From: Alicyclobacillus sacchari
Lineage (GTDB): Bacteria; Bacillota; Bacilli; Alicyclobacillales; Alicyclobacillaceae
Assembly: GCF_004366795.1 (NCBI RefSeq)
Contig: NZ_SORF01000011.1
Coordinates: 1 to 64,000 of the forward strand
Direction: 5' to 3'
Length of the DNA: 64,000 nucleotides
The notes under the pieces were generated by a model. That model saw nothing but the letters and a program-made list of their open reading frames with translations, did no database searches and was not told the origin of the DNA. Shown here piece after piece: positions 10,203-56,076 of the stretch. Positions within the stretch are counted from its first letter, which is position 1; each line of letters begins with the position of its first letter. Made by a program: the position numbers and the translations under genes.

Positions 10203-11483
10203 GTGTTTTTTGACCACGCCAGCATTTATGTAAAGGGTGGCGACGGTGGCAACGGCATCGTCTCGTATCGGCGTGAAAAGTACGTGCCGCTAGGTGGACC
10301 AGCTGGCGGTGATGGCGGGCGCGGCGGCGACGTCGTATTGATTGTCGACGAAGGTTTACGCACGCTCATCGACTTTCGCTATCAACGCCATTTTAAGGCC
10401 AAGCCCGGTGAACAAGGCGGTACCAAAAACAAACACGGCGCGGACGCCTCGGATTTGGTGATCAAGGTTCCCCCCGGCACGGTGGTCCGAGATGCGAATT
10501 CGGGTCAATTTCTTGGTGATTTGATACAACACGGGGATCGCCTCGTGGTTGCGCGCGGCGGGCGCGGGGGGCGTGGAAATGCCCGTTTTGCCACTGCCGT
10601 CAATAAGGCACCCGATATGGCGGAAAAGGGCGAGCCCGGTGAAGAGCGCTGGTTGGAGCTTGAACTTCGCGTATTGGCGGATGTCGGTCTCGTCGGCTTT
10701 CCGTCCGTCGGGAAGTCCACATTGCTTGCTGCCGTGACACGCGCACGCCCAAAGGTTGGGGCATATCACTTTACGACGCTCAACCCCGAGCTTGGGGTCG
10801 TCGAGACCTCGGACGGCCGAGGATTCGTCATTGCCGATCTCCCAGGCCTCATTGAGGGAGCACACGCCGGGCATGGGTTGGGGCACGAATTTCTTCGGCA
10901 CATTCAAAGAACACGCGTGATCGTTCACGTCATTGATGCCGCATCCGTCGACGGGCGCGATCCGGTCGAGGATTTCCGGATTATCGAGAATGAGTTGGCT
11001 GCCTACGATCCGGTGTTGGCCGAACGGCCACGCATCGTTGCGGCAAATAAGATGGACCTGCCTGGCGCAGCGGCGGGATTGGAGCGTTTTCGGCAGGCGT
11101 ATCCGAATCTTGAGGTGTTTCCCATCTCAGGCGCGACGCATCAGGGTCTTGAACCTCTTATTCGCAAACTAGCTGATATGTTGGATGCACTGCCGCACGG
11201 AGTAGAACCCCAGATCGTCGCTCCAGATGAAGAAGAGCACAAGGTCTACCGCCTTGAGCGCAAGGAGCCGTTTGCGATCCGCCGGGAGGGTGGTGAATTT
11301 ATCGTCGAAAGCCCAGAGCTTGAGAAGCTTGTAAAAATGACGAATTTCCAGCAGTTTGACGCAGTGAAACGGTTTCAAAGAATTCTCAAGCAGCGCGGAG
11401 TTGACGACGCTCTGCGTGAACGCGGCGCGAAGGATGGCGATAGTATTCGCATCGGAGATATGGTGTTCGATTTTGTGGATTGA
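10203..11483 (+). CDS. obgE: GTPase Obg (CgtA)
   Basis: 426 aa with three domains. The glycine-rich Obg fold (GGDGGNGIVSYRREKYVP, GGPAGGDGGRGGDV) is followed by the G domain with GFPSVGKST at about 165-173, DLPGLIEGA as G3 and NKMDLPG as G4. A C-terminal OCT domain completes it. It acts in 50S assembly and stress signalling, and in Bacillus is needed for the Spo0A phosphorelay, fitting its pairing with spo0B. The start is GTG. Confidence 0.98.
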   Translation: MFFDHASIYVKGGDGGNGIVSYRREKYVPLGGPAGGDGGRGGDVVLIVDEGLRTLIDFRYQRHFKAKPGEQGGTKNKHGADASDLVIKVPPGTVVRDANSGQFLGDLIQHGDRLVVARGGRGGRGNARFATAVNKAPDMAEKGEPGEERWLELELRVLADVGLVGFPSVGKSTLLAAVTRARPKVGAYHFTTLNPELGVVETSDGRGFVIADLPGLIEGAHAGHGLGHEFLRHIQRTRVIVHVIDAASVDGRDPVEDFRIIENELAAYDPVLAERPRIVAANKMDLPGAAAGLERFRQAYPNLEVFPISGATHQGLEPLIRKLADMLDALPHGVEPQIVAPDEEEHKVYRLERKEPFAIRREGGEFIVESPELEKLVKMTNFQQFDAVKRFQRILKQRGVDDALRERGAKDGDSIRIGDMVFDFVD

Positions 11484-11853
11484 AGCGAACCACACGTTGC
11501 CTAAGGAAGTTCTTCGCGAATTGATATCGCTTGCGATAGCAAGCCATCCGGTTGAATGTGTTGGTTTTGTCGTCTACCGATTTCAGCATTGGATACTGCC
11601 TCTGCCTGCCCTGGCATCGCCGCGGTCTGTTTTTGTTGATCCGGCGGTGCTGATCCCCACCCTCTACCTTTTGGAGCAGCATGGCATGACCATCGTCGCG
11701 TCCTATCACAGCCATCCGAATGGGCTTACTCATCCTAGTAAACTGGACGATGGATTTCGACTATACGGCGGATCGCACGTTTTACTCGTGCGCGAACAAC
11801 GGACATTTACTCCACACACCTACATTTGGCGCCATCAAATTTCTCATCCATAA
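11473..11853 (+). CDS. Small JAMM/MPN-type metallopeptidase-like protein
   Basis: About 126 aa. The core motif HSHPNGLTHPSKLD gives the zinc ligands His 79, His 81 and Asp 92, with Ser 89 and an upstream Glu (about 28, HPVECVGFV), as in prokaryotic JAMM (Mov34/MPN/PAD-1) proteins that cleave isopeptide or thiocarboxylate conjugates. The product is little more than the bare domain. The start is uncertain: TTG 11473 overlaps obg by 11 bases, and TTG 11497 is an alternative. A terminator follows, so it likely shares the obg transcript. The substrate is unknown. Confidence 0.75.
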   Translation: MWIEANHTLPKEVLRELISLAIASHPVECVGFVVYRFQHWILPLPALASPRSVFVDPAVLIPTLYLLEQHGMTIVASYHSHPNGLTHPSKLDDGFRLYGGSHVLLVREQRTFTPHTYIWRHQISHP

Positions 11854-11892
11854 ATCCTCATCAACTCTTGTGAATATTTACATAAAGATATG

Positions 11893-11922
11893 CGCCTGTA
11901 TTCGTTGAAAACAGGCGTTTTT
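11893..11922 (+). terminator. Rho-independent terminator of the obg-JAMM unit
   Basis: CGCCTGT (11893-11899) pairs with ACAGGCG (11911-11917), followed directly by TTTTT. It lies between the JAMM gene and the comG operon. Confidence 0.85.
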
Positions 11923-11964
11923 GGTGCTGGCTCGAATTCTTTGTGCCAAAGGAGGATACGAGTC

Positions 11965-12948
11965 ATGGAACCATTGACAACCGCCAGAATGGTGCAGGAT
12001 GTTCTCGATGCAGCAATCGAGTTGGGTGCTAGCGATATTCATCTGAAGATGTATGAAGGACAGGTCACCGTCTCCTGCAGGATTGCCGGGGTAGTGCGCC
12101 CGTTGATGTCGTTCTCTTGTTTAGGAGAAGAGTTGCTACGACGTTTTAAGGCCTTGGCACGCATGGACGTAACCGTGCGCCAGTCTCCGCAGGAGGGAAG
12201 TTTTGTTTGGGACTGTTCCAGCGGCAAGGTATTCATTCGCATGTCTGCCCTGCCCATCTATCGAGGAGAATCACTCGTGATGCGGCTACTGGTGGAGCAA
12301 AGGGCGATATTGTCGATGTCAAATTTGGGCTTTACCGATGTACAACTTGGCGAGGTTGAACGCTGGTTGTGCCACAGAAGCGGCCTCATCGTCGTCTCTG
12401 GGCGCACGGGCGTTGGGAAAACGACGACGCTGTACAGTTTGATGAACGAATTGGCCAATCGCGGTCGACAGGTGTTTTCGTTGGAAGATCCGGTTGAAAT
12501 TCCGTTGCCAAATTGCAGGCAAATTGAGATTCACGAGCGTTCGGGTGTAACCTTCCATACCGCCTTGCGCACCCTGCTGCGCCAGGATCCGGATGTGATG
12601 ATGATCGGTGAAATTCGAGATGAAGAAACCGCACAGGCAGCTTGTCGGGCAGCTTTGAGCGGGCGCTTGGTGTTTGCCACGACACACGCAAGCGGCCTGC
12701 CTGGAACGGTGATGCGGCTTGTCGATTTCGGCGTACCGCAGGCTGTGGTTCGCGACGTGTTATCGGGAGTGATCGTCCAACATGCGTTGTCCCGGGATGC
12801 GGGCAAAGAACAACGCTATACCCTGGAGGCATTTCAATCGCAGTGTATCGGAACTGTTCAAAAGCACGGTGTACGGAGCGAGATGGGTGATGTATATGAA
12901 GCCAAGTCGTTCAAGTTGGAGGATCTTCAATTCGCCTCAAGTATGTAG
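11965..12948 (+). CDS. comGA: Competence pilus assembly ATPase ComGA (PilB/GspE family)
   Basis: 327 aa secretion ATPase. The N-terminal ATPase-associated domain (GASDIHLKMYEGQV) precedes Walker A GRTGVGKTTTLYSL, the Asp box, Walker B QDPDVMMIGEIRDEETAQA and the His box (TTHAS). It powers the pseudopilus for DNA uptake. AAAGGAGG precedes ATG 11965. No tetracysteine zinc motif is seen, as in B. subtilis ComGA. First of seven closely packed genes. Confidence 0.93.
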   Translation: MEPLTTARMVQDVLDAAIELGASDIHLKMYEGQVTVSCRIAGVVRPLMSFSCLGEELLRRFKALARMDVTVRQSPQEGSFVWDCSSGKVFIRMSALPIYRGESLVMRLLVEQRAILSMSNLGFTDVQLGEVERWLCHRSGLIVVSGRTGVGKTTTLYSLMNELANRGRQVFSLEDPVEIPLPNCRQIEIHERSGVTFHTALRTLLRQDPDVMMIGEIRDEETAQAACRAALSGRLVFATTHASGLPGTVMRLVDFGVPQAVVRDVLSGVIVQHALSRDAGKEQRYTLEAFQSQCIGTVQKHGVRSEMGDVYEAKSFKLEDLQFASSM

Positions 12949-54848: not shown

Positions 54849-55529
54849 CTAGGATGATGGATTGGCTCGCCAAGCTGTGGAGCCATCTGCAAAGTACTCT
54901 TTCTTCCAAATGGCAGCTTCACGTTTCAGTCGTTCAATCAGCGTGTTTGCCGCCTCAAATGCAGCGGCTCGGTGTGGCGAGGACGCTCCACAGATGACGG
55001 CGATATCGGTCGGTAGGAGTTTGCCAATTCGGTGCCATTGCAACGTCTTCATGCCTGGGTAACGTCGCTCCACTTCGGCTTGAATGGTCGCTAGTTGTTT
55101 GTACACCATCTCCGGATACGCTTCGTACACCAGGTGATCGGTATGCCGCTGGCCAGTCCACTCGCGAACGGTGCCAACGAACAATACGGTTCCGCCATGG
55201 TTGGGATCTTCCAACAGCTGATATGCTTCCTCGACGGCGAGAGGCTTTTCGGTAACGCGCAGCCACGGCGCGACACTTTCCATTTCGCCGCCCCCGACGG
55301 GCGGAATGAATGCGATCTCGTCAGTTGGGCGCAACGTATCAGCCGGCCTTGCCAGCGCATGGTTTTTCGCGACAAGCACGTTCGCCAACGCATCCTCAAG
55401 CTGCGGATAGCGGCTTGCTACCAGACTAGGCAGCTCACCTGCTGGCAGTGCGTCTGGCACATCGATGCTGATTTTGTCTTGTCCCATGATTTCCTTTAAA
55501 TTTGCAAACAGGCGAATTTCGATCTGCAT
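54849..55529 (-). CDS. moaDE: Fused molybdopterin synthase MoaD-MoaE
   Basis: 226 aa. Residues 1-81 are a MoaD ubiquitin-like domain (MQIEIRLFANLKEIMG) ending in VGGG at about 78-81, and the rest is MoaE (VLFVGTVREWTG, HRIGKLLPTDIAVICGASSPHR, and WKKEYFADG with the catalytic Lys). MoaD needs a free Gly-Gly end to carry the thiocarboxylate sulfur, so this chain is expected to be cleaved after Gly 81, as with the mycobacterial MoaX fusion. The gene is divergent from moaC, with 52 bases between starts. Confidence 0.92.
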   Translation of the reverse strand: MQIEIRLFANLKEIMGQDKISIDVPDALPAGELPSLVASRYPQLEDALANVLVAKNHALARPADTLRPTDEIAFIPPVGGGEMESVAPWLRVTEKPLAVEEAYQLLEDPNHGGTVLFVGTVREWTGQRHTDHLVYEAYPEMVYKQLATIQAEVERRYPGMKTLQWHRIGKLLPTDIAVICGASSPHRAAAFEAANTLIERLKREAAIWKKEYFADGSTAWRANPSS

Positions 55530-55581
55530 GTCGGATCACCTCGTGCCAGTCGGTACAAATGGACAACAGGAGCGATGTCAA

Positions 55582-56076
55582 GTGTCTGAGCAAAGTTTGA
55601 ACCATTTTACACAGGATGGCCGACCTCACATGGTCGACGTCAGCGAAAAAGCTATCACCAAGCGTACAGCTGTCGCCGAATCGCTGGTGCGCATGCAAAG
55701 AGCGACGCGCGACGCTATTGTACACCAAGCGATGCGCAAAGGCGATGTCCTCACCATTGCAGAATTAGCTGGGATTATGGCGGCGAAAAAGACGTCTGAA
55801 TTAATCCCCTTATGCCATCCTGTACCCATTCATCACGTTTCGGTCGATATGGACTTCGAGGAGCGGGATCACCCCGAATGCGCTTGGCTGCGTATTGAGG
55901 CGCAGGTCGATACCGCGCATCAGACGGGCGTCGAGATGGAGGCGCTCACCGCTTGTACCGTCGCAGCGCTCACCGTGTACGACATGTGTAAGAAGGTCGA
56001 TCGGGCGATTGAGATTGAGTATACGCGCTTGGTCTATAAGAGCGGGGGCGAAAGCGGCACCTTTGACCGCCGCTAG
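55582..56076 (+). CDS. moaC: Cyclic pyranopterin monophosphate synthase
   Basis: 164 aa. MVDVSEKAITKRTAVAES and LIPLCHPVPIHHV, then GVEMEALTACTVAALTVYDM, all MoaC signatures. It forms cPMP in molybdenum cofactor synthesis. GTG 55582 follows CAGGAGCG. moaA is not in the window. Confidence 0.95.
   Translation: MSEQSLNHFTQDGRPHMVDVSEKAITKRTAVAESLVRMQRATRDAIVHQAMRKGDVLTIAELAGIMAAKKTSELIPLCHPVPIHHVSVDMDFEERDHPECAWLRIEAQVDTAHQTGVEMEALTACTVAALTVYDMCKKVDRAIEIEYTRLVYKSGGESGTFDRR

Follow-up and report, generated by a model that had tools for sequence, protein, structure and literature searches.

We propose, with a probability of roughly 0.7, that the product of the moaDE gene of Alicyclobacillus sacchari is a proenzyme of the MoaX type that is cut after Gly81, probably by the JAMM protease encoded at 11473..11853 of the same window (the whole 64-kb stretch of DNA that was analyzed). 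The analysis established the MoaD-MoaE fusion, the conservation of its Gly-Gly and of the MoaE lysines, a single E1, a single Prok-JAB gene over the cut-off and the co-distribution of fusion and JAMM. Cleavage, the position of the cut and the identity of the protease are proposed by analogy to MoaX of Mycobacterium tuberculosis, DR2607/DR0402 of Deinococcus radiodurans and HvJAMM1 of Haloferax.

The moaDE (moaX-type) gene is located at 54849..55529 on the minus strand, has an ATG start and encodes 226 amino acids, as judged from the open reading frame, Pfam, TIGR01682 and alignments. MoaD comprises residues 1-81, followed by the junction Gly79-Gly80-Gly81/Glu82 and a MoaE core at approximately residues 92-220. 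Both Pfam domains were complete and above the cut-off in this one frame, ThiS/MoaD at residues 5-81 (E 1.3e-11) and MoaE at residues 92-204 (E 6.1e-32), which bears out the initial annotation of MoaD and MoaE fused in one chain. The TIGR01682 moaD model aligned to residues 3-81 up to its last position, with 62.6 bits slightly below the cut-off of 66.15. We rejected the explanation that the fusion is an artefact of annotation or assembly, the chance of which is negligible, because the same single frame was found in independent assemblies of relatives, including Alicyclobacillus tengchongensis, the nearest named relative with 87% identity for MoaDE. MoaDE is the only MoaE found in the A. sacchari genome, and the fusion must therefore serve the five PF00384 molybdoenzymes encoded there. 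Residues R122, H186, R187, K202, and K209 of the MoaE part were invariant in 45 fusions (alignment A2, consisting of 44 of 56 usable loci and the window protein; the separate alignment A1 holds 24 rows of 30 usable). Judging from the motif, K202 and K209 probably correspond to the catalytic lysines K119 and K126 of E. coli MoaE. The E. coli numbering is that used in passages of PMC4443979.

The moaC gene (55582..56076, plus strand), assigned by family matches and with GTG as the most plausible start, is divergent from moaDE. With the GTG at 55582 the 52 bases previously reported between the two starts (55530..55581) were confirmed, and a consensus scan of this gap revealed no sigma-70-like promoter. 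Of 31 loci in the order, 26 had the divergent pair; in the remaining five the stretch covered contained no moaC match, and no locus had a different arrangement. Downstream of moaDE and in the same orientation lies a gene for a glycoside hydrolase of family 18 (PF00704; 53396-54760), and a similar gene is found near moaDE in relatives.

The junction has the sequence IPPV-GGG-EMESV, in which Gly80-Gly81 is the pair that forms the C-terminus of a free MoaD. Its codons for residues 78-85 (V-G-G-G-E-M-E-S) are located at 55275..55298 (minus strand), and the cut is predicted after Gly81 from what is described for MoaX and DR2607. Residues P76, P77, V78, G80, and G81 were invariant in all 45 fusions of alignment A2, which come from several phyla, and the Gly-Gly is therefore not a chance occurrence. 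A Gly-Gly motif was also found ahead of MoaE in 53 of the 55 fused Bacilli genes that were read. In an AlphaFold2 model of MoaDE built from alignment A2 both domains were well folded, with a mean pLDDT of 91.9, and residues 78-82 were the only segment of at least three residues with a pLDDT below 50. In the model, this segment fits an exposed and flexible linker at the expected cutting site. A Gly-Gly inside the chain implies that the protein is cut after Gly81, and by analogy to MoaX and DR2607 it is very likely that MoaDE needs a post-translational cut after the second glycine for activity. The processing after Gly81 that had been suggested earlier is thus supported.

According to passages of PMC4326299, MoaX of M. 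tuberculosis depends on a cut that separates Gly82 from Ser83, so the mycobacterial precedent had been cited correctly; in this 2015 paper the mycobacterial protease is described as unidentified. MoaX resembles MoaDE in domain order, internal Gly-Gly and conserved MoaE residues, and the solved sequence closest to MoaDE, 9jbd, carries the chain name MoaX. Cleavage is followed by Ser in MoaX and would be followed by Glu in MoaDE. In M. tuberculosis, moaD and moaE additionally exist as separate genes (passages of PMC4326299), whereas A. sacchari has no other MoaE than MoaDE. The D. radiodurans JAMM protein DR0402 (DRJAMM) cuts the MoaD-MoaE fusion of that organism, and the mutant accumulates cPMP (passages of PMC8832034, citing Yang, 2018). 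This fusion, DR2607, is like MoaDE a linear fusion and the sole MPT synthase. HvJAMM1 activates an engineered SAMP1-MoaE fusion in vivo by cutting it after the C-terminal Gly (passages of PMC4443979). The Haloferax fusion was engineered from genes that are naturally separate, whereas that of MoaDE is natural. The remark in the initial annotation that the protease is unknown can therefore not be maintained, since JAMM proteins cut such fusions in both D. radiodurans and Haloferax and the window contains a JAMM gene with an intact motif.

The candidate processing enzyme is encoded by a JAMM/MPN+ (Prok-JAB) metalloprotease gene at 11473..11853 on the plus strand, about 43,000 bases from moaDE. 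It likely has a TTG start, as deduced from the LW start conserved in relatives, and overlaps the end of the gene directly upstream (10203..11483, plus strand), which we take from its sequence to be obgE. The gene downstream (11890..12948, plus strand) presumably encodes a comGA-like secretion ATPase, a name likewise taken from its sequence. Among 30 JAMM loci of the order, obgE was upstream in 29 and comGA was matched downstream in 28. The Prok-JAB match (11500-11793) scored 46.8 bits compared to a Pfam cut-off of 25 and was the only one over the cut-off in the genome, RadC being a weak match below the threshold. The JAMM motif (Glu and H-S/T-H-x7-S-x2-D) is intact with E28, H79, H81, S89, and D92, and its H-x-H-x7-S-x2-D part was intact in all 30 loci. 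A single-sequence structure model of the product was poor (mean pLDDT 46.4).

Some observations count against this JAMM as the MoaDE protease. By sequence, it is only distantly similar to characterized JAMM proteins: it scored 25.7 bits with the haloarchaeal desampylase model NF041370, below the NCBIfam cut-off of 130, and 17 bits with solved JAMM1 chains. In addition, the gene lies outside any moa operon of the genome. Compared to D. radiodurans, where DR0402 was shown to cut DR2607, the A. sacchari JAMM is located between obgE and comGA, is far in sequence from the characterized proteins and is a candidate from its sequence. No JAMM with an HSHP-type motif was found beside moaDE in the flanks of 80 named loci. 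Conversely, none of 90 JAMM loci had a moaC match, and in one of them a MoaD-like gene next to an E1 gene was matched weakly.

The fusion is not unusual and occurs in many phyla; passages of PMC4443979 report it for Firmicutes. MoaE was found in 54 of 59 genomes of the order, and every one of the 54 had one or more open frames of at least 222 residues. Among the 30 loci of relatives that were read, 29 were fused and 28 of these 29 had the Gly-Gly. Two genomes of the order (G016 and G007) have extra short MoaE genes besides the fusion. Across bacteria, 60 of 80 named loci were fused and 20 separate, which is not a frequency, since the loci were sampled for their similarity to the fusion. Matches of fusion length were also found in a plasmid search, for example in Paenibacillus cellulosilyticus and Deinococcus proteolyticus.

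The fusion and JAMM were strongly co-distributed. JAMM, counted here as a Prok-JAB match with E <= 1e-5, which may include other JAB proteins, was found in 94 of 96 Bacilli genomes with the fusion, in 14 of 93 with a non-fused MoaE and in 9 of the 60 without a MoaE match (249 genomes altogether). Counted by family, at least one JAMM was present in 15 of 15 fused compared to 7 of 22 non-fused. For named genomes of several phyla, 50 of the 80 loci were chosen by MoaD-MoaE architecture with the JAMM status unseen, leaving out Alicyclobacillus and other loci of the order, truncated loci and some Acidobacteria. JAMM accompanied 30 of 31 fused and 3 of 19 separate loci, most of the latter being Bacteroidota by record title. 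The raw p-values of these comparisons overstate the evidence because there are few independent changes between fused and separate: in a MoaE tree of 127 rows (out of 173 extracted MoaE sequences, with members of the order thinned) the state changed 6 times, giving 3 independent pairs on supported branches. On average JAMM went the same way in 1.4 of these pairs, the opposite way in 0.1 and did not differ in 1.5, and three pairs are too few for significance. No title or abstract opening in the literature searched linked a JAMM of Bacilli or Alicyclobacillus to MoaD-MoaE; PMC4443979 refers to a tabulation of JAMM proteins.

One genome (G127, locus L263) that a regular-expression test had scored as a fusion without JAMM was rejected, as its DNA has a TGA after the MoaD Gly-Gly and a separate MoaE. 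At another locus, from Terriglobia (L127), the MoaD frame ends five residues past the Gly-Gly (ASYCE) and MoaE is in a separate frame; either the fusion has been split and left with a tail, or the sequence contains an error. Outside the order, 11 of 30 JAMM loci of other phyla adjoin an E1 gene (L165 and 10 others among L153-L182), once with a MoaD-like gene between. This suggests a role there that we take to resemble CysO/Mec+, i.e., a sulfur carrier in cysteine synthesis. When one flank of L165 was scanned with Pfam in one frame, no match was obtained.

The five genomes of the order without MoaE also lacked MoaC. JAMM over the cut-off was absent in two of them (G028 and G047) and kept in three (G035, G049, and G054), all except G028 and G035 being less than 90% complete. 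About 120 bases, without a JAMM gene, separate obgE from comGA in G028. Two fusions of one family (G130 and G148, family f24) have LPPPDAP in place of the Gly-Gly. A free MoaD that ends in PPVSGG is encoded beside an E1 gene in G130, where no JAMM was found, and in G148 JAMM is still present. In G050, which is 81% complete, the fusion likewise lacks the Gly-Gly and JAMM is absent. From their sequences, the fused MoaD of these three loci (L286, L287, and L014) cannot be a normal sulfur carrier. The losses in G028 and G130 fit JAMM as the MoaDE protease. G159 is a clear misfit: it has moaC and a fusion with the Gly-Gly, yet no JAMM match reached 1e-5.

A reading that we regard as unlikely, yet worth keeping in mind, is that the cut after Gly81 is made by another protease or by MoaDE itself, while JAMM releases, e.g., other ubiquitin-like conjugates. 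G159 agrees with this, as does the JAMM gene being unlinked to moa genes. JAMM may have another task, because the Moco-less G035, G049, G054, and G182 (the last from another family) retain it. These observations are to be set against the co-distribution of fusion and JAMM and against the two experimental systems, known from the passages cited, in which JAMM makes exactly such a cut. The genome also offered no further ThiS-family ubiquitin-like substrate candidate: the search, which covered the ThiS family, found MoaDE and ThiS, and since ThiS already ends in Gly-Gly-Gly, MoaDE is the only protein of this family found to need trimming. Self-cleavage is further disfavored by the finding, in passages of PMC4326299, that M. 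tuberculosis MoaX yielded only a wrong-sized fragment in E. coli. It is far less probable that the uncut chain is an active MPT synthase or that its MoaE works with another carrier such as ThiS. G130, G148, and G050 retain the fused MoaD domain despite loss of the Gly-Gly, so that an uncleavable MoaD may not prevent MoaE from working, at least in G130, where a free MoaD exists. This hardly agrees with the near-complete conservation of the Gly-Gly in the alignment and in the Bacilli genes, or with the loss of MoaX function when either glycine is mutated and the need for Gly81 in MoaX cleavage (passages of PMC4326299).

In the favored reading, with JAMM as the maturation protease, moaDE would yield an MPT synthase precursor of about 25.1 kDa that is inactive until the JAMM zinc protease cuts its flexible junction behind Gly81. 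This would free MoaD with a C-terminal Gly-Gly and MoaE (residues 82-226), with calculated masses of about 8.7 and 16.5 kDa, respectively. MoaD would be adenylated by the one ThiF-type E1 (ThiF/MoeB family) found over the cut-off in the genome, the gene of which adjoins thiS, and its C-terminus would then be thiocarboxylated. MoaD and MoaE would assemble into the usual heterotetramer and put two sulfurs on cPMP.

The fusion, the requirement for its cutting and the cutting of such fusions by JAMM proteins are already in print. What is added here is that a protease earlier put down as unknown is replaced by a named and testable enzyme-substrate pair inside one 64-kb stretch, and that the natural loss cases predict when the protease is dispensable. 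There is about an even chance that this extends to a large part of the Bacilli, which would then synthesize MoaD-MoaE as an inactive precursor and keep a JAMM maturase dedicated to it, in the Alicyclobacillus order at a fixed position with obgE on one side and comGA on the other. The pair would break up in predictable ways: JAMM would disappear either along with cofactor synthesis or once a free MoaD has taken the place of the fused one, whose Gly-Gly is then lost and which persists as a MoaE partner no longer active in transfer.
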